Below are positions 6,621 to 18,003 of a stretch of 64,000 bases of DNA, in pieces. Source of the stretch: Halorussus limi (GTDB lineage: Archaea; Halobacteriota; Halobacteria; Halobacteriales; Haladaptataceae); assembly GCF_023238205.1 (NCBI RefSeq), contig NZ_CP096659.1, positions 1,178,001-1,242,000 of the forward strand, written 5' to 3'. A model generated the notes under the pieces. The model saw nothing but the letters and a program-made list of their open reading frames with translations. It did not search any database and had not been told where the DNA came from. Numbering within the stretch: position 1 is the stretch's first letter; each line of letters begins with the position of its first letter. A program made the translations under genes and the position numbers.

Positions 6621-7634
6621 GTGGCTTCCCCCATCGACGCCTCGATACCCGACCTCCTGCGACTGCTCGTCGTCCCCGTCTTCGGTTGGGCCGCGCTACG
6701 CGACGTGAAGACCCGCCGCGTACCGAACCGGACGTGGTACCCCCTCGCCGCGCTGGCGGTCGTCCTGTTGGCGGTCGAGGGCTGGCAAGCGTGGACCGGC
6801 ACCGCCTACGAGACCCGAGCGTTCGCGCTCCGGACCGCCATCAGCCTCGGCTTCGTCGCGCCGCTCGTCGTCGCCTTCTGGTGGTTCCGGGCGTTCGGCG
6901 GCGCGGACGCGAAGGCGTTTCTCGTCGTCGCCGCGCTGTTCCCCACGTTCCCGACCTACGAGGCGTTCGGGTGGGTCCTCCCCCACCAGCGGACCGCGGT
7001 CGGCGTGTTCTCGCTGACGATTCTGACCAACACCGTGTTGCTCGGCGCGCTCTATCCGCTGGCCGTCCTCGGCCGGAACGCGGTCGCCGGGCGGTTCTCG
7101 TCGGTGATGGTCGTCGGCAAGCCGGTGTCGTGGCGCGCCGCGGCCGAGGAACACGGCCGCCTGCTGGAGACGCCCGAGGGCGTGACCCGCAACGGCGTGG
7201 ACTTGGACGCGGTGCGGATGTACCTCCGGTGGCGCGGCCTGACGCTGGCGGAGTTGCGCGAGCGCCCCGACCGTTTCCGGGACCCCGCCACCCTGCCGGC
7301 GGAACCGAATCCGCCCGGCGACGGGTCGGTCGGCGTCGAAGACCTCCGGGCCGACGGCGGCGAACTCGAAGCACCGGCGGAGACCGTCGCCGAGGAGGAC
7401 GCGCCCGCCGACGACCCGTGGGGCGCGGCGGCGTTCCTCGACGACATCGACCACGGCGCCTACGGCACGACCCCCGAGGGCCTGCGCGACGGACTCGACG
7501 TGCTGGTCAGCGCCGAGGAGGTCTGGGTCTCGCCGGGCATCCCGTTCGTCGTTCCGCTGTTCGTCGGGACCGTCGTGGCGCTGACCTACGGCGACATGCT
7601 GTTCGGCGCGATGGCGGTCTTCGGTCTGGCGTGA
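6621..7634 (+). CDS. pibD: Type IV prepilin/preflagellin peptidase (A24)
   Basis: 337 residues from GTG 6621, with a TATA-like ATTTATATA at 6571-6579. It belongs to the aspartic A24 membrane peptidases that cleave class III signal peptides of archaeal pilins and archaellins. The two catalytic motifs are visible: RDVKTRRVPN (Asp28) and FGGADAK (Asp96, a GxGD variant). There are about six membrane segments: four in the first ~150 residues, and a C-terminal pair around 290-335. Between them lies a long hydrophilic loop (about 165-290) that is typical of haloarchaeal forms. No pilin genes are adjacent, as expected for an enzyme serving many pilin loci. Confidence 0.85.
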   Translation: MASPIDASIPDLLRLLVVPVFGWAALRDVKTRRVPNRTWYPLAALAVVLLAVEGWQAWTGTAYETRAFALRTAISLGFVAPLVVAFWWFRAFGGADAKAFLVVAALFPTFPTYEAFGWVLPHQRTAVGVFSLTILTNTVLLGALYPLAVLGRNAVAGRFSSVMVVGKPVSWRAAAEEHGRLLETPEGVTRNGVDLDAVRMYLRWRGLTLAELRERPDRFRDPATLPAEPNPPGDGSVGVEDLRADGGELEAPAETVAEEDAPADDPWGAAAFLDDIDHGAYGTTPEGLRDGLDVLVSAEEVWVSPGIPFVVPLFVGTVVALTYGDMLFGAMAVFGLA

Positions 7635-7654
7635 AAGACGCGAAAAACAGAGGT

Positions 7655-8581
7655 CTACTCCTCTTCGCCCTCGGTCCCGGCGACCATCCCGGACACGTTG
7701 CCGACGTTCATCGCCACCGCCAGCACCACCGCGATGACGAGGACGATGAACGACGAGATGGCGTTCATCTTCGGCGCGGTCCCGTACTTTATCATCGAGA
7801 ACATCGACGTGGTCAGCACGTCCATCGTCCCGCGCACGAAGAACGCCCGGATGAAGTCCTCGAACGACCGAATCCACGCGAACAGGAACCCCGCGCCGAT
7901 GGCCGGCGCGACGATGGGAAGCGTCACGTCGCGGAACACCGTCAGCGGGTCGGCCCCGAGGTCGCGGGCGGCCTCCTCCAGCGACTCGTCGAACGTGTAG
8001 AGCCGCGAAGTCACGATGAGTAGCACGAACGGAAGGCCGTACACGCTGTGGGTCAGCACGACCGTCCAGAACCCCGGCACGATGGTGATGCCGAACAGTT
8101 GGGGCAGGAGCGTCCGGAAGTAGATGAGCAGCGCGATGCCCAACACCACGCCCGGAATCACCATCGGCAGGATGCCGAACGTCCGGTAGGCCTCCTTCAG
8201 CGGGAAGGCGAACCTCGCCAGCGCGAAACTGGCGAGGACGCCCAACAGCGTGGCGATGGACGCCGCAATCGTGGCGACCTGCACGCTGTGCCACAACGAC
8301 CGCATCAGCGCCTCGTCGGCGAACGTCGCGCCGTAGTGGGCCAGCGTCACTCCACGGAAGGGGAAGAACGTGCTGGCGTTGACCGTGAACGAGAGGACTA
8401 TCATCACCGCGAGCGGAATCCAGAGGAACACGAGCAGCGCCCCCGCGACGACGTAGAGGCCCCGTCCGAGGAGCCACTCCTTGCGCTCGTGGTCGAGAAT
8501 CCGGGTCCCGGTCCCCCGCTCGGTCGGAGTTCCGCGCTCGGTCTCCGTGCCGGAGTCGGTCTCCGTCGCCATCTCAGACAC
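7655..8581 (-). CDS. potC: ABC importer permease, PotC-like
   Basis: 308 residues with six predicted membrane helices starting after a charged, Thr/Glu-rich N-terminal tail (about residues 1-35). The EAA-type loop that docks onto the ATPase is visible as EEAARDLGADPLTVFRDVTL. It is the inner-membrane permease half of a spermidine/putrescine-type ABC importer (binding-protein-dependent permease family). The start overlaps the end of the preceding permease gene by 8 bp, indicating translational coupling in the potD-potB-potC operon. The substrate may be a polyamine or another small cation; sequence alone does not settle it. Confidence 0.85.
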   Translation of the reverse strand: MSEMATETDSGTETERGTPTERGTGTRILDHERKEWLLGRGLYVVAGALLVFLWIPLAVMIVLSFTVNASTFFPFRGVTLAHYGATFADEALMRSLWHSVQVATIAASIATLLGVLASFALARFAFPLKEAYRTFGILPMVIPGVVLGIALLIYFRTLLPQLFGITIVPGFWTVVLTHSVYGLPFVLLIVTSRLYTFDESLEEAARDLGADPLTVFRDVTLPIVAPAIGAGFLFAWIRSFEDFIRAFFVRGTMDVLTTSMFSMIKYGTAPKMNAISSFIVLVIAVVLAVAMNVGNVSGMVAGTEGEEE

Positions 8582-9509
8582 CTCCCAAGTCCTCGATACT
8601 GACGTACCGGAACGCCAGCGCGAACGCCACCACGATGGAGGCGACGATGAACATCGACGCCGCGCTCCCGTACCCGATGGCGTACAGCGAGTTGATTCGA
8701 CTCTCGATGAGTTGGCCTATCATCAGCACCTTCCCCTGCCCGAGGAACCGCGGCGTGATGAACGCCCCCAGCGCGGGCACGAACACGAACAGACTCCCGC
8801 TGATGATTCCCGGCAGCACGAGCGGGAGAATCACGTCCCGCAGCGTCTCGGCCCTGCTGGCCCCGAGGTCCCGGGCCGCCTCGGTCAGCGAGAAGTCGAG
8901 ACCGTCGAGGCTGGCGTACAGCGACAGCAGCATGTACGGGAAGTACGCGTGGGTCAGCCCCACGATTATCGCCGGCACGCCGTAGTTGAAGATGCCGAGG
9001 GGCCCGTCGGTGATTCCGATTCGCATCAGCGTGCTGTTGAGGACCCCGCTCGGGCCGAACATGAGGTACCACGAGTAGGCCCGCACGAGGTACATCGTGA
9101 AGAACGGCAACAGCACGAGGAAGATGACGACCTTGAACGTGGTGCCGCCCCGGCGCGCGAGCAGGTACGCCAGCGGAAACGCCAGCACCAGACACAGCAC
9201 GGTCGTCACCGCCGCGATGAAGTACGAGAGCGCGAGCGACTGGAAGAACGCGGTCTGCCAGAACGGACCCTCTCCGGCGAACAACTGGTCGTAGTTCGCC
9301 AGCGTCGGTTCCCAGATTATCTGGTACGTGAACGTGTCGACGCTCGTGAAACTGACCGCCACCATGAACGTCAGCGGCGTCAGCAACAGGAGGAACAACC
9401 AGACCAGCGCCGGTCCGGCGGTTATCCCGAGCCTGTTCGCCCGAGAGGCGAACGCGCCGACGAACCGTTCGCGCGCGGACCGGCCGCGCTCGGAGGTTTC
9501 GGTAGCCAC
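8574..9509 (-). CDS. potB: ABC importer permease, PotB-like
   Basis: 311 residues, six membrane helices, with the first at about 28-52. The EAA loop reads TEAARDLGASRAETLRDVIL. It pairs with the PotC-like permease to form the transmembrane channel of the importer. The gene begins 1 bp after the binding-protein gene and overlaps the next permease by 8 bp, so the three genes form one tight operon. The N-terminal cytoplasmic tail is basic (RGRSARERFVGAFASRANR), consistent with an in-facing N-terminus. Confidence 0.85.
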   Translation of the reverse strand: MATETSERGRSARERFVGAFASRANRLGITAGPALVWLFLLLLTPLTFMVAVSFTSVDTFTYQIIWEPTLANYDQLFAGEGPFWQTAFFQSLALSYFIAAVTTVLCLVLAFPLAYLLARRGGTTFKVVIFLVLLPFFTMYLVRAYSWYLMFGPSGVLNSTLMRIGITDGPLGIFNYGVPAIIVGLTHAYFPYMLLSLYASLDGLDFSLTEAARDLGASRAETLRDVILPLVLPGIISGSLFVFVPALGAFITPRFLGQGKVLMIGQLIESRINSLYAIGYGSAASMFIVASIVVAFALAFRYVSIEDLGGV

Positions 9510-12069: not shown

Positions 12070-12930
12070 CTAGTTGCTGCGGCGGATCGCGAGCAGCGCG
12101 GCCGCGACGAGCGCGACGAGAGCCGCAGTGGTTCCGAAACCGGGGGCACCGGTTCCGCTACCGCCGGTGGTCGTCTCGTCGTCGGAGTTCGACGACTGCG
12201 TCGTATCATCACCGGAACCGTCCTTCGTGGCCGTCTCGGTGTCGTTGCTGATCGCTTTCTCCGTCACCGTGTCGTCGGCCGAGTCGCTTCCGTCGTTCGA
12301 ACTCTGGTCGTCGGAAGCGGTCGTCTCGGTCGTGGTCGTCGTGGTGTCGGCGCTGCCGCCGGTGTTGCCGCCACCGGCGCTACCGCCGCCACCACCGCCA
12401 CCACCGCCGCCACCGCCACCACCGCCGCCGCCGGTGTTACCGCCGCCACCGCCGGTCGACGACGTCGTCGTGGCCGTGGTCGCCGTGGTCGTGGTGGTAC
12501 CGGACGGAGTCGACGTGCTGGTGGTAGTCGACGTCGGCGTGGTCGTTGTCGTCGTGGACAGTTCGCCGACTGTGAAGTCGTTCTTCGTGTTTTCGCCGGA
12601 CTCCCACGTCTCTTGGGCGCTCGCGTTGCCGTTCGCGACGCGGATGGTCAACTGCTCGTCCGATTCACCGTCGTCCGGGTCCGCCACGTCGACGCCGTAC
12701 TCCCCGTTGGAATCCGTCGTCGTCTGGTTGATGACTTCGCCGTTGTAGACGACTTCGACCGTGACGCCCTCGACCGGGTCGCCGTTCTGGTCGCTCACGG
12801 TCCCGCGGAAGTGGTGGGGCGGAGCAGGTTGTCCCGCAGCAACGCCTGCGACGCTCGCAACCAGCATCGCCGCGAACACCGCCGCAGCTAGCTGCACGAA
12901 CCGCTTCTTGAGTAGTGCATTTTCTGTCAT
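12070..12930 (-). CDS. PGF-CTERM surface protein with Thr-rich and poly-Gly stalk
   Basis: 286 residues from ATG 12930 (a GTG 15 bp upstream is less likely). Order: Sec signal peptide (about 7-33), a carboxypeptidase-regulatory-like beta-sandwich (about 38-125; FRGTVSDQNGDPVEGVTV), a Thr/Ser-rich stretch suited to O-glycosylation, an uninterrupted run of 17 Gly inside a Gly/Asn-rich segment, a second Thr/Ser/Asp linker, and the tripartite C-terminus GAPGFGTTAALVALVAAALL-AIRRSN. The PGF motif plus hydrophobic helix plus basic tail is the PGF-CTERM signal processed by archaeosortase A and replaced by a lipid. It starts 44 bp after the surface glycoprotein gene, so the two are probably one operon; a role as a wall-spanning anchor is inferred. 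Confidence 0.85.
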   Translation of the reverse strand: MTENALLKKRFVQLAAAVFAAMLVASVAGVAAGQPAPPHHFRGTVSDQNGDPVEGVTVEVVYNGEVINQTTTDSNGEYGVDVADPDDGESDEQLTIRVANGNASAQETWESGENTKNDFTVGELSTTTTTTPTSTTTSTSTPSGTTTTTATTATTTSSTGGGGGNTGGGGGGGGGGGGGGGGGSAGGGNTGGSADTTTTTTETTASDDQSSNDGSDSADDTVTEKAISNDTETATKDGSGDDTTQSSNSDDETTTGGSGTGAPGFGTTAALVALVAAALLAIRRSN

Positions 12931-12974
12931 TGTATGAGTGATCACCTATAAATTGGAAAGTGGATGCTGCGGCT

Positions 12975-15900
12975 TCAGGTCGCGTAGGCGGTCTCGCCGT
13001 AGACGTCGCCGTCGTCTTCGGTCACGAGGACCCAGTACCCTTCGCCGGGTTCGAGGTTCTCGCTACTGGAGACGTCGGAGAAGCTCAGGCGACCGTTCTC
13101 CGTCTGCTGGTAGACGGTGGTGAAGTCGCCGGCTTCGATGGCCGAGAAGGCGACGTCGCGGTTCTGAGAGCCTTCCTGCCAGTGACCGACCAGGTTCCAG
13201 CCCTCGTGGACGTCTTCCGACCCGGGCGTCGCGGACTCCAGGCTTCCGGAGCTACCGGGCTGGTTGTAGACGTTCATGTCGAGGGTGGCGCTGTGGTTCA
13301 TCACGAAGATATACCCTTGGCCGCCTTCCAGCGTTTCCAGCGTGCTCGTGTTGTCACCGGGCGTGTAGTGGCTCCATCCGTCCTCGTCGTACGCCCAGAC
13401 GGTGTCGTTCTCCGTCAGCGCATCGATCTCGGATAGGTCGACCGCACCGCTCGCCGCGGGTAGGGAGACCACGTTGTGGCCCTCTTTCAGGTTCAGTTCG
13501 ATGGTGTGAACCGTGGTGGTGTCCGAGGCGTTGGTGGCATTCGCGGAGTCACCAACGTAGTTATCCTCGACGAAGGCACCGTCGGAGACGTTCAGTGCGG
13601 GCGAGTCGCCCGTCTGGAAGTTGTCGCCGAAGGTGACCTTGACGAAGCCCTTGGTAGCAGCGCTGTCTGCGGTGACGCTACTGGCCTGCACGCGAGCGTC
13701 GCCGACGTTGATGAGCTCCGAACTACCGAGGTCGTCGACGACGGGCTCGTTGAACTCGACGCGGACCGTCGTGCTCGAATCGCCCGCATCGATGATTTGC
13801 GCGTCGGTGACGTGCGGGTCTTCGCCGTCGGTGCTGAACGTGCTGGTCTCGTCGCTATTGAGGAGTTTCTGGTCGTTCTCCCCAACGGCGGAGATCAGCG
13901 TGGCCTTGTAAGCACCGTCGCGGTCGTCGACGGTCGCCGTGTAGGTGACGACGCCGGTCGTGGCGTTGTAGTCACGGCTGAAGTCGTCCAGCGTGAGCGT
14001 CTTCGTCACGGAGCTACCGAAGTAGCTGTCGGTGCTGTTGACGCCGACGGTGAGACTACTCAGGTTCGAGTTGGTCTCGAACGTAACCTGCGCCGTTCCG
14101 GCGTCGCTACCGTTCAGGCCTTCGGCCTCGAACGTGCGCACGTCGAGGTTGTTGACGGTAACGTTGACCGTCTTCGAGACCTTGTTGTTAGCGTCGTCGG
14201 TGACGTTCACGCGGAACGTGAGCGTCCCGTCTTCGAGCTGGGTCGTGTCGAGTTCGTCCGTCTCCGCGTCGAAGACATTCGTACTCGTACTGAGGTCGAT
14301 GGTCGTGAACGAATCGTTGTTCGAACCGTTGTACTCGTAGGTGACTGCGTTCCCGTCAGTGTGCGAGACAGTGAACGCCTCGGAGACGTTCACGTCGCCG
14401 TAGACGAGTTCACCTTCCGAGAGGGTGCTCGAGACCGACGGGTCGTAGTTGTCGAGGAGGACGGTACCGCTGGCGGTGTCGCTGTTGTCGGCGTCGTCAG
14501 TGACGGTGACCTTCAGCTTGATGTTGCCGTCCTCGAACTGCGTCGTGTCGAAGCTCTCCGGCGAGGAGACGGTCTGGTAGTCCTCGGCCGGGAAGCCGCC
14601 GCTCGCGTTCGTGTTGTACTCGTAGGTGACGGTCTGGTTCTCACCGCTGATGTCGAACTGCTCGGTGAGGTCGAGCGTTTCGTTGAGCGTACTCTCACTG
14701 AAGTTCGCCTTCGCGCTCGGGACCTGCGTGTCGTACAGGAACGTCCCGTTGTTCACGCTCGTGTTAATCGACTTTCCAGCCTTGTCCTTGGCGTTGCTGA
14801 CTTCGACTTCCGCAGTAGCGTCGGCCGACTTCGTCGGGAGGGTAATCTTACCCTTCCACGTTGTGTTGGCCGGGCCGAAGCCGTTCGTCCCGAAGGTTCC
14901 ATTATTGTTGACGGTGGCGTCGGTCACACCGTCACCGTTGACGTCGACCGTAACCGACGGATTAACGGTCTGGTCCATCGGTTCGCTGAACTTGACCGTA
15001 ACGTTGCGCTCGACGCCAACGTTGCTGGCGTTCACCGGCGTGTCGTCGACGGTCACGCTCGTGACCCGCGGCTGCATCGAGTCGACGGTGTAGGTGAACG
15101 CCGACGAGTTGAGGTTGTCCACGGAGTCCGCGGAGGTCACGACGTACGTAACGTCGCCCTGCGGAAGCGCCGGAACGCCCTTCTGCGACGAGTCGACGGT
15201 CAGCGTGCGGCCGTCGAACTCGACGCCCGTGGTGCTGTCGGTCGCGCTGTCGAGCAGGACGTTGCCGTCAGCGTCCTTGACGGTGACTTCGACGGTGTTC
15301 GGGTTGACCGCCGAGTACGTGTCCGTGATGTCGAAGGTCAGCGTCGGCTCGTCGGTGGTGAGGTACGAGTTGTTAGCCGTACCGGGACTCACCTTCGGGC
15401 CAGACGCGTCGACCTTGAACGTCCGACTCGTCTGGCTGTAGTTACCGTTCGAGTCGGACGCGAACACCTTCACGGTGACCTCTCCGTCCGGAAGCGCGGA
15501 CACACCGTCGCTACCGGGGTAGACGGACAGCGTCTGGCCGTTGAAGTACACGCCGGCGTCGTTGGGCGTGTTGGCCGAGACCAGACCGCCGCTTGCGTTG
15601 TAGATTCCGACCTCGATGCTGTCCGGGTTGATGCCCTGCGAGTCGTCGATGTCGACTGCGATCTTGTGTTCGTCGTCCGCGATCTTCTCGCCGGAAGCCA
15701 AGTTCCAGTTGCTGTATGCCGGACTGCTGCCGACACTGACCGAGTCGGACTTGGGGCCAGCCCAACTGTTCCCGAAGGTATCAGTGGCGCTGGTCACCGT
15801 GGCCGTGTGAGTCCCTTCGAAGGCCTTCTGCGTGTACGTGTAGACGTACGAACCGCCGTTCGAAGCACTCTGGGCGAAGTCCGAACGAGTCAGACTCTGG

Positions 15901-16841
15901 TTCTTGGCCGTCTCGTTGTTGTACTCCACGGCGATGGCACCGTCAGAGGAACCTAGCTGCTCCGAGGCGTTGATGGTAATCTTGGCCATTCCGTCCTCGT
16001 GAGTGACGGTGAACTTGTTAATGGACGGTGCCGTCGCGTCCTTCGTGACCGTGGTGTTGGCGGTGAGACCGTCGGCGTTCCCGTTCCCGGCGGCATCGGT
16101 CATCTTCGCCGAGATTTCCACCGTGCCATCGTCGAAGCTCGAGGCGGCAATACCGGACACCGACACCTCTTGCTCTTGAGAGTCATCGTCCGACAGGCCC
16201 GAGATATCCTTCGACGCCGTTTCGGTCGTCGAACCGTTCTTTAGCTGAACGGTCAGGGTGCCGTCCTCGGGGTCGTCGGTCAGGTTGACCGTGACCGAGT
16301 AACCGGTCTCGTTACTCGACACGATAGGCCCACCAACAATCGAGACGGGGTCGTCGGGAGCGGTGTAGTCGGCCGTGACGGTGGCGCTATCTTCTGCGCC
16401 CATACCGTCGAGGTCGACGGTCACGCTCGCCGAGTTGCCGTCAGCGACGCTGAGCTTGTCCTTGGTATCGTCACTGGAGCCACTCACGAGAGTGAACGAA
16501 CCCCAGTAGTTGCCGTCGCCCGCTCCACCGGTGGACGAGCCATCAGCGCCACTTCCGTCGTCAGCGAGAGTAACGGTGATGGAACCACCGTTACCATTCG
16601 AGACGGTAACTTTCTGAGTGCCACCAGTCGTTGCACCGTCTGTGGCTTTGATGTAGACTGTTTCGCCGTCCTGTGCTACCGAAATCTGGTTCCCACCCAC
16701 GCTGTCGTGGATGGTAACCGTGTCTGTGTTGGCCGCGACGGCACTCCCGGTGAACGCGATGGACCCTCCGAAGACGGAGAGGACCATCAGCGCAGCGAGG
16801 AATACCGCGCGCGCCTTGTCGCGTGCTTCGTTCCGATTCAT
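12975..16841 (-). CDS. Surface (S-layer-type) glycoprotein, Ig-like repeats
   Basis: 1288 residues from ATG 16841. The N-terminus (ARDKARAVFLAALMVLSVFG, ending near GSAVAA) is the characteristic halobacterial surface-glycoprotein signal peptide. The mature protein is very acidic, rich in Asp, Thr, Ser and Asn, with many N-glycosylation sequons. It consists of tandem Ig/cadherin-like beta-sandwich modules with recurring phrases (ALPDGEVTVKVFASDSNGN, LEDGTLTFRVNVTDDANN). Two related C-terminal modules (about 1110-1195 and 1205-1288) each contain a hydrophobic start (EGHNVVSLP, EGWNLVGHW) and a G-x-G-Y end. There is no C-terminal membrane helix and no PGF-CTERM, unlike classical S-layer glycoproteins. 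The frame is open upstream to 17162, but that part has no signal peptide. Probably the major or an accessory S-layer protein. Confidence 0.85.
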   Translation of the reverse strand: MNRNEARDKARAVFLAALMVLSVFGGSIAFTGSAVAANTDTVTIHDSVGGNQISVAQDGETVYIKATDGATTGGTQKVTVSNGNGGSITVTLADDGSGADGSSTGGAGDGNYWGSFTLVSGSSDDTKDKLSVADGNSASVTVDLDGMGAEDSATVTADYTAPDDPVSIVGGPIVSSNETGYSVTVNLTDDPEDGTLTVQLKNGSTTETASKDISGLSDDDSQEQEVSVSGIAASSFDDGTVEISAKMTDAAGNGNADGLTANTTVTKDATAPSINKFTVTHEDGMAKITINASEQLGSSDGAIAVEYNNETAKNQSLTRSDFAQSASNGGSYVYTYTQKAFEGTHTATVTSATDTFGNSWAGPKSDSVSVGSSPAYSNWNLASGEKIADDEHKIAVDIDDSQGINPDSIEVGIYNASGGLVSANTPNDAGVYFNGQTLSVYPGSDGVSALPDGEVTVKVFASDSNGNYSQTSRTFKVDASGPKVSPGTANNSYLTTDEPTLTFDITDTYSAVNPNTVEVTVKDADGNVLLDSATDSTTGVEFDGRTLTVDSSQKGVPALPQGDVTYVVTSADSVDNLNSSAFTYTVDSMQPRVTSVTVDDTPVNASNVGVERNVTVKFSEPMDQTVNPSVTVDVNGDGVTDATVNNNGTFGTNGFGPANTTWKGKITLPTKSADATAEVEVSNAKDKAGKSINTSVNNGTFLYDTQVPSAKANFSESTLNETLDLTEQFDISGENQTVTYEYNTNASGGFPAEDYQTVSSPESFDTTQFEDGNIKLKVTVTDDADNSDTASGTVLLDNYDPSVSSTLSEGELVYGDVNVSEAFTVSHTDGNAVTYEYNGSNNDSFTTIDLSTSTNVFDAETDELDTTQLEDGTLTFRVNVTDDANNKVSKTVNVTVNNLDVRTFEAEGLNGSDAGTAQVTFETNSNLSSLTVGVNSTDSYFGSSVTKTLTLDDFSRDYNATTGVVTYTATVDDRDGAYKATLISAVGENDQKLLNSDETSTFSTDGEDPHVTDAQIIDAGDSSTTVRVEFNEPVVDDLGSSELINVGDARVQASSVTADSAATKGFVKVTFGDNFQTGDSPALNVSDGAFVEDNYVGDSANATNASDTTTVHTIELNLKEGHNVVSLPAASGAVDLSEIDALTENDTVWAYDEDGWSHYTPGDNTSTLETLEGGQGYIFVMNHSATLDMNVYNQPGSSGSLESATPGSEDVHEGWNLVGHWQEGSQNRDVAFSAIEAGDFTTVYQQTENGRLSFSDVSSSENLEPGEGYWVLVTEDDGDVYGETAYAT

Positions 16842-17278: not shown

Positions 17279-17569
17279 TCACTCGGTCCGAATGCTCCGC
17301 TCGACGACCGCGTCGAAGTCCACGTCCGAATCACCGTACGAATCCCGGTGGTCGAGCACCGCACGCCCGCGGTCGGTAATCTCGTAAAGGCCGCTGTTCT
17401 CGGCCGGGCCGACGCGTTTGACGAGTTCGAGTTCGGCTAGATGAGGCAGACGAGTGTTCACGTAACTTCGGTCCTTGTCCAACAGGAGTGAAATGTTCTG
17501 GGCCGTGTTCCGGCCGTGCTCTTCGAGCGCTTCGAGTATCTCGAAGTCCGTCGGTTCGGCGAGTTTCAT
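17279..17569 (-). CDS. PhiH1-repressor-like winged-helix regulator (copy 1)
   Basis: 96 residues. The MarR/PadR-like winged helix has the haloarchaeal phage-phiH1-repressor pattern: TDFEILEALEEHGRNTAQNI, then a recognition helix around DRSYVNTRLPHLAELELV, then a wing GPAENSGLYEITDRGRAVL. Small DNA-binding dimer expected. It is paralogous to the gene at 17701-18003 (same length and motif spacing, VNTRLP and GLY-ITxxGRAVL shared). Both lie upstream of the surface glycoprotein operon and on the same strand, so control of surface proteins is an attractive guess. The promoter has repeated AACAGTA elements flanking the TATA box. Confidence 0.8.
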   Translation of the reverse strand: MKLAEPTDFEILEALEEHGRNTAQNISLLLDKDRSYVNTRLPHLAELELVKRVGPAENSGLYEITDRGRAVLDHRDSYGDSDVDFDAVVERSIRTE

Positions 17570-17700: not shown

Positions 17701-18003
17701 TTACTCGGCGTCGGACCGCGACTCGAGCGTTTCTTCGACGGCGGCGTCGAAATCCACGTCCTCCTCTCGGTACTTCGAGCGGTTTTCGAGAACGGCCCTG
17801 CCCTTCTCGGTGATGGCGTAGAGACCGCTGTTCGGGGCGGGGCCCACACGTTCGACGAGCCCGTAGTCCGCCAGAATCGGCAGTCGCGTGTTCACGTACG
17901 CACGGTTCTTGTCGAGTTCGTGAGCGAGGTTGACCGCGTTGTTCCGTTTTCCGTCAGAGAGGGCCTTCAGAATATCGAAGTCCGTCGGGGTAGTGAGCTT
18001 CAT
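17701..18003 (-). CDS. PhiH1-repressor-like winged-helix regulator (copy 2)
   Basis: 100 residues with the same winged-helix architecture as its neighbour: TDFDILKALSDGKRNNAVNL, recognition segment NRAYVNTRLPILADYGLVER, wing APNSGLYAITEKGRAVL. The C-terminal acidic tail is slightly longer. It has its own TATA-like GTTTATAAACC (minus strand, about 18027-18037), so the two paralogs need not be co-transcribed. The pair looks like a local duplication. Targets are unknown. Confidence 0.8.
   Translation of the reverse strand: MKLTTPTDFDILKALSDGKRNNAVNLAHELDKNRAYVNTRLPILADYGLVERVGPAPNSGLYAITEKGRAVLENRSKYREEDVDFDAAVEETLESRSDAE

Follow-up and report, generated by a model that had tools for sequence, protein, structure and literature searches.

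A conserved gene pair in Halobacteriota suggests that large surface proteins may be fastened to the cell by a separate, lipid-anchored partner

In the 64,000-nucleotide stretch of the Halorussus limi genome analysed here (the window), a large secreted surface protein that has no anchor of its own and a small protein that carries one are encoded by neighbouring genes. We consider it probable that these two genes form a modular dock-and-anchor cassette, in which a C-terminal domain of the large protein would bind the small one. The recurrence of the two-gene unit in salt-loving archaea and in methanogens points to a general mechanism of surface attachment that has apparently gone undescribed. 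The initial annotation of this DNA had proposed a two-component S-layer, consisting of an array protein and a separate lipid-anchored post. The part of this proposal that concerns an unanchored large protein with a separate post is borne out by the conserved adjacency of the genes, the complementary topology of their products and a natural fusion, whereas the S-layer part fares poorly in view of two anchored S-layer genes in the same genome, the limited occurrence of the pair within Halorussus, and the subtilase and beta-helix cargo found in relatives.

The large protein (1288 aa; 12975..16841, minus strand) starts, as initially annotated, with an S-layer-type signal peptide (16728..16841, minus strand; residues 9-38), which matches the halo_sig_pep model TIGR04207 with 47.3 bits against a cut-off of 24.6 and is one of only three such matches in the genome. 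The cargo ectodomain that follows (13512..16727, minus strand) is an array of Ig-like repeats recognizable by weak matches to PKD, fn3 and Y_Y_Y, and the protein contains 36 N-glycosylation sequons, compared with 22 expected from its composition. The lack of a C-terminal helix and of PGF-CTERM was also confirmed: profile models run on the 1288-aa chain detected no PGF-CTERM, and the highest Kyte-Doolittle mean in the last 80 residues, with a 19-residue window, is 0.09, so that the C-terminus is not hydrophobic. A frameshift hiding a PGF-CTERM in this gene, an objection that the initial annotation had raised against its own reading, can be dismissed, inasmuch as the other frames across the junction contain no such signal and relatives terminate at the equivalent position.

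The C-terminal ~177 residues of the large protein make up what we call the twin domain, the proposed docking domain (12981..13511, minus strand), delineated by profile conservation and by an AlphaFold2 model. It consists of two pseudo-repeats, 'GHNVVSLPA…GGQGYIF' and 'GWNLVGHWQEG…GEGYW', and the two-repeat signature 'GWNLVG…GEAYW' is conserved across its relatives. The domain matched nothing in Pfam and NCBIfam and has no family name there. The AlphaFold2 model (pLDDT 76.7, pTM 0.77) is mostly beta, with one short helix; a PDB fold search with it returned no match at E < 0.001, the best being vicilin/cupin-like barrels at Z 3.6, which does not lend itself to interpretation, and no hit emerged when PDB sequences were searched with a profile.

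Behind a gap of exactly 44 nt from stop codon to ATG (12931..12974), as stated in the initial annotation, lies the gene of the small partner (286 aa; 12070..12930, minus strand). All features of this protein are on the minus strand as well: a signal peptide with a hydrophobic leader (12832..12930); a conserved prealbumin/CarboxypepD_reg-like domain, the proposed socket (12568..12828; PAPPHHFRGTVSDQNG...), assigned by profile matches and by the fold match of a relative's domain; a stalk rich in Thr, Ser and Gly that includes poly-Thr runs and 17 consecutive Gly (12160..12567); and a PGF-CTERM archaeosortase signal (12079..12159; residues 258-284), which scores 30.1 bits with TIGR04126 at a cut-off of 24.5. 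The tail has the PGF motif, the hydrophobic stretch and the basic end of an archaeosortase A substrate, and archaeosortase A itself is encoded in the genome (TIGR04125, C1:2302689-2303537, E 4.6e-98). A search of PDB sequences with the small protein yielded linker and low-complexity matches only. The signal peptide type, the Thr-rich stalk and the PGF-CTERM are shared with the ArtA-dependent S-layer glycoprotein (NF041335/TIGR04216); there, however, they belong to one chain, whereas here the signal peptide with the array and the stalk with the anchor are distributed over two proteins. The large protein did not match these two models, and the small one matched them with its C-terminal tail only, at 31.6 and 33.7 bits versus cut-offs of 1100 and 400.

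How general is this arrangement? A profile of the twin domain was run against 392 Halobacteriales genomes and found the domain at 46 places in 39 genomes from 20 of 95 genera, including Halorussus marinus, Natrinema, Haloarcula salina, Halobellus, Halorubrum, Halospeciosus and Halobacterium. The DNA around all these places was translated. In 43 of the 46, a partner gene lies directly downstream on the same strand and encodes the conserved N-terminal domain with the signature 'PPHxxxGTVTDQNG…' or a diverged form of it; the other three places run off the contig, two of them (in Halorussus marinus) inside the leader of the partner and one before the partner. Such a frequency rules out adjacency by chance, and the absence of co-conservation, which the initial annotation had allowed for as a counter-indication, is contradicted by very strong co-conservation. 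The 43 cases include three degenerate ones, namely the second locus of L158, where a shortened partner follows 790 nt on, the frame-disrupted L185, and L085, in which the large gene is truncated. The distance between the two genes is -11 to 137 nt in 36 of the 37 pairs with an assignable ATG, L158 being the exception. The topology is strictly complementary: a C-terminal hydrophobic segment is present in none of the large proteins and in every intact haloarchaeal small one. In many of the small proteins, this C-terminal anchor is a PGF-CTERM. Conversely, among the strong hits to the small domain (E < 1e-15), only the orphan L193 and a fusion in Halospeciosus lack an adjoining twin domain. The pair stays together across unrelated neighbourhoods, in five haloarchaeal families and also on a Halobellus plasmid.

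Within the genus Halorussus, the pair is present in 5 of 18 genomes, at unrelated loci, where its neighbours are an S9-type peptidase, a glutamate-synthase-like gene or an apparent tRNA end. One of the degenerate loci (L085, G010:C1:3174000-3190000, ~7600-9141) has a large gene that is 5'-truncated and frame-broken just downstream of an apparent tRNA 3' end, with dock and partner intact, and has the appearance of a copy that decayed or recombined. Halorussus marinus possesses two paralogous large genes (L086 and L087, contigs C10 and C6) whose docks are nearly the same and whose Ig arrays differ; both contigs end within the partner gene, a pattern that suggests duplicated, recombining cassettes. 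In seven strong haloarchaeal loci (L175-L180 and the second gene of L158), the twin domain is internal rather than C-terminal, with ~250-920 further residues behind it.

A wider twin-domain profile, built from 25 sequences, detected the domain in many other Halobacteriota. A partner is found downstream at most of the methanogen-side loci that were read (L222-L226, L228, L229, L232, L233, L237, L238), in some cases with a PGF-pre-PGF domain, and plasmid neighbours of such loci are annotated as 'surface glycoprotein' and 'PGF-pre-PGF domain-containing protein'. Two methanogen partners (L229:4145-5209 and L232:3575-4771) end in dockerin-like repeats (DLNNNGKLADAGDVLLIL) and show no obvious membrane helix. 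In one methanogen genus, none of the five sampled twin-domain genes (L227, L230, L231, L234, L239) has a partner next door. Hence, the pairing rule is near-absolute in Halobacteriales and common but not universal elsewhere. Plasmid pMETEV01 of Methanohalobium evestigatum (L277) carries several large surface genes, some with a PGF-pre-PGF partner gene behind them; another of the large genes on this plasmid lacks a partner in the position immediately after it.

The twin domain is combined with very different ectodomains: Ig arrays, as in the window, Peptidase_S8 (L182, L188) and NosD/right-handed beta-helices (L184, L186, L161, L183). Over 28 pairs, identity averages 42% in the dock and likewise 42% in the partner domain, as against 21% in the N-terminal 400 residues of the cargo. 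The cargo is exchangeable. In a mirror-tree comparison, the trees of dock and partner correlate with r = 0.62, and with the cargo region the values are 0.59 and 0.64; because the dock-partner value does not exceed the other two, the correlation shows co-inheritance only. A stronger hint comes from Halospeciosus flavus, which has an ordinary pair (L172) and, in addition, a second gene for a 978-aa protein (L194:2649-5582). In its first part, this protein resembles the Ig array of the large protein from the ordinary pair (33% identity), and its residues 785-978 align with the small protein of that pair (42% identity), from the conserved domain through the stalk to the helix; neither the twin domain nor an inner signal peptide is present in between. 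Since the ectodomain is here covalently tied to the anchor and the twin domain has been dropped, the fusion provides the strongest hint that the job of the twin domain is attachment to the partner; this single case could, however, also be a deletion accident.

These observations bear on the notion that the two genes are simply co-transcribed and that their products, for example an adhesin and a small lipid-anchored glycoprotein, act separately and do not bind each other. Co-inheritance alone would suffice to explain the tree correlation, and the partnerless methanogen loci fit such an arrangement; yet near-complete adjacency across cargo of three unrelated kinds, anchors that are strictly complementary, and a fusion that removes the twin domain are all hard to account for unless the proteins are in contact, so that we deem separate action improbable. 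Still less credence can be given to the possibility that the small protein helps to assemble or process the large one, as a chaperone or a maturation or secretion factor, rather than being its permanent anchor. Genes adjoining those of exported proteins often encode maturation factors, and the partners do vary in length, some of them with extra PKD or PGF-pre-PGF domains; but domain searches found no catalytic domain in the partner proteins, a stalk and a lipid anchor are the parts that a post requires, and in the fusion the partner domain stays permanently on the ectodomain. A dock on the large protein and an anchored post next door remains the reading that we prefer.

As to the S-layer, the same genome contains, directly beside archaeosortase A, two tandem anchored S-layer glycoprotein genes (frames of 714 and 691 aa; G000:C1:2297824-2303537, loci L091 and L275). 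Both encoded proteins have a signal peptide, halo_surf_dom above the cut-off and PGF-CTERM, and they match NF041335 over most of the chain with 231 and 208 bits, i.e. below its cut-off. The initial annotation had listed a second full-length anchored S-layer gene elsewhere as counting against its reading, and two are there. With ordinary S-layer genes elsewhere in the genome, and with the pair in only the five Halorussus genomes mentioned, in different places, the pair appears to be accessory. The S-layer reading is further weakened by the subtilases and beta-helices that the twin domain carries elsewhere; to our knowledge, neither of these builds lattices.

The comparison with the SlaA/SlaB system of Sulfolobales is nevertheless instructive, as it represents the strongest form of the S-layer reading, with the large protein as the main lattice of the cell and the small one as its post. 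In both systems, a large beta-rich secreted protein that lacks an anchor is accompanied by a smaller, membrane-bound one; the sizes of the pair resemble those of SlaA (1424 aa) and SlaB (475 aa) (PMC10903991), and the large protein combines an S-layer-type signal peptide with an Ig array. The partner has one prealbumin-like domain where SlaB has N-terminal beta-sandwich domains, and in a fold search with the partner domain of a relative, SlaB of Sulfolobus (8qox_B, residues 128-219) came first, with Z 10.3 and an rmsd of 2.2 over 84 residues. Carboxypeptidase D, teneurin and other prealbumin-like domains tied with it, however, so that the match reflects the same common fold rather than the same family. 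Moreover, SlaB has a long trimeric coiled coil at its end (PMC10903991), together with a transmembrane helix, whereas the small protein has a Thr/Gly stalk and an archaeosortase signal; the pair also differs in its docking domain, in the exchangeability of the cargo, enzymes and beta-helices included, and in being housed by a cell with another S-layer. Taken together with the two ordinary S-layer genes and the restricted distribution of the pair, these differences make it unlikely that the window encodes a two-component lattice of this kind.

Other known systems offer partial parallels to the dock-and-anchor cassette. Cohesin-dockerin and other non-covalent docking modules resemble it, by analogy only, in that a conserved dock on many cargoes meets a separate anchored receptor; no sequence relation to them was found, and here the genes of cargo and receptor adjoin one-to-one. 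The PGF-pre-PGF domain (TIGR04213) precedes the anchor in many partners from other genomes, whereas the small protein of the window lacks it (no match at E 1); a link of the PGF-pre-PGF family to a neighbour gene was not found in the open-access literature searched, where the domain turns up as a table entry. The VARTIG modules of Thermococcales, as summarized in PMC8416519, likewise comprise a large Ig-domain protein with characteristic downstream genes, but their variable part is the C-terminal Ig domain and the downstream genes vary; the same summary reports no counterparts outside Thermococcales. By the features compared, the pair would work like a two-component anchor of the SlaA/SlaB or dockerin type and belong to neither. 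A description of the pair itself was not found in the portion of the open-access literature that was searched, and priority is uncertain.

Upstream of the large gene, the window contains two small winged-HTH genes in tandem (17704..18003 and 17285..17569, both on the minus strand, identified by sequence comparison), and the 4.6-Mb genome has no further copy of this HTH. Eighteen other loci likewise have relatives of these genes close to the large gene, as a rule on its upstream side, and many genomes also carry them away from the pair. The two genes probably regulate the pair.

The course of events that we envisage is the following. Both proteins would be exported, and archaeosortase A would exchange the PGF-CTERM of the small one for a lipid; the twin domain of the large protein would then bind the prealbumin-like domain of the small one non-covalently, and a separate post would thereby keep the ectodomain at a distance from the membrane. 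An AlphaFold2 model of a read-through chain of Halobellus inordinatus that includes the dock and the partner domain has a pTM of 0.62, shows no defined contact between the two and thus speaks neither for nor against their binding. Since the displayed ectodomain in the window is an Ig array, the large protein probably has an accessory role as a surface or adhesion protein, which would reach through the ordinary S-layer or lie on it, while in other genomes the same dock would display beta-helix proteins or subtilases. Whether this amounts to a plug-and-socket display system general to the phylum Halobacteriota, with the twin domain as a cargo-independent plug, the adjacent lipid-anchored protein as the socket, Ig adhesins, beta-helices and proteases being swapped, and some loci under the control of the winged-HTH pair, is in our judgement evenly balanced.

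As far as we know, the established modes of surface retention in haloarchaea place the anchor, be it a lipobox, a transmembrane helix or PGF-CTERM, in the same chain. A widespread two-gene anchor with a recognizable dock would explain how large, seemingly 'unanchored' surface glycoproteins are retained by the cell. It would also assign a role to two conserved domains that lack a name, and the dock would serve as a tag for displaying proteins on the cell surface at high salt.
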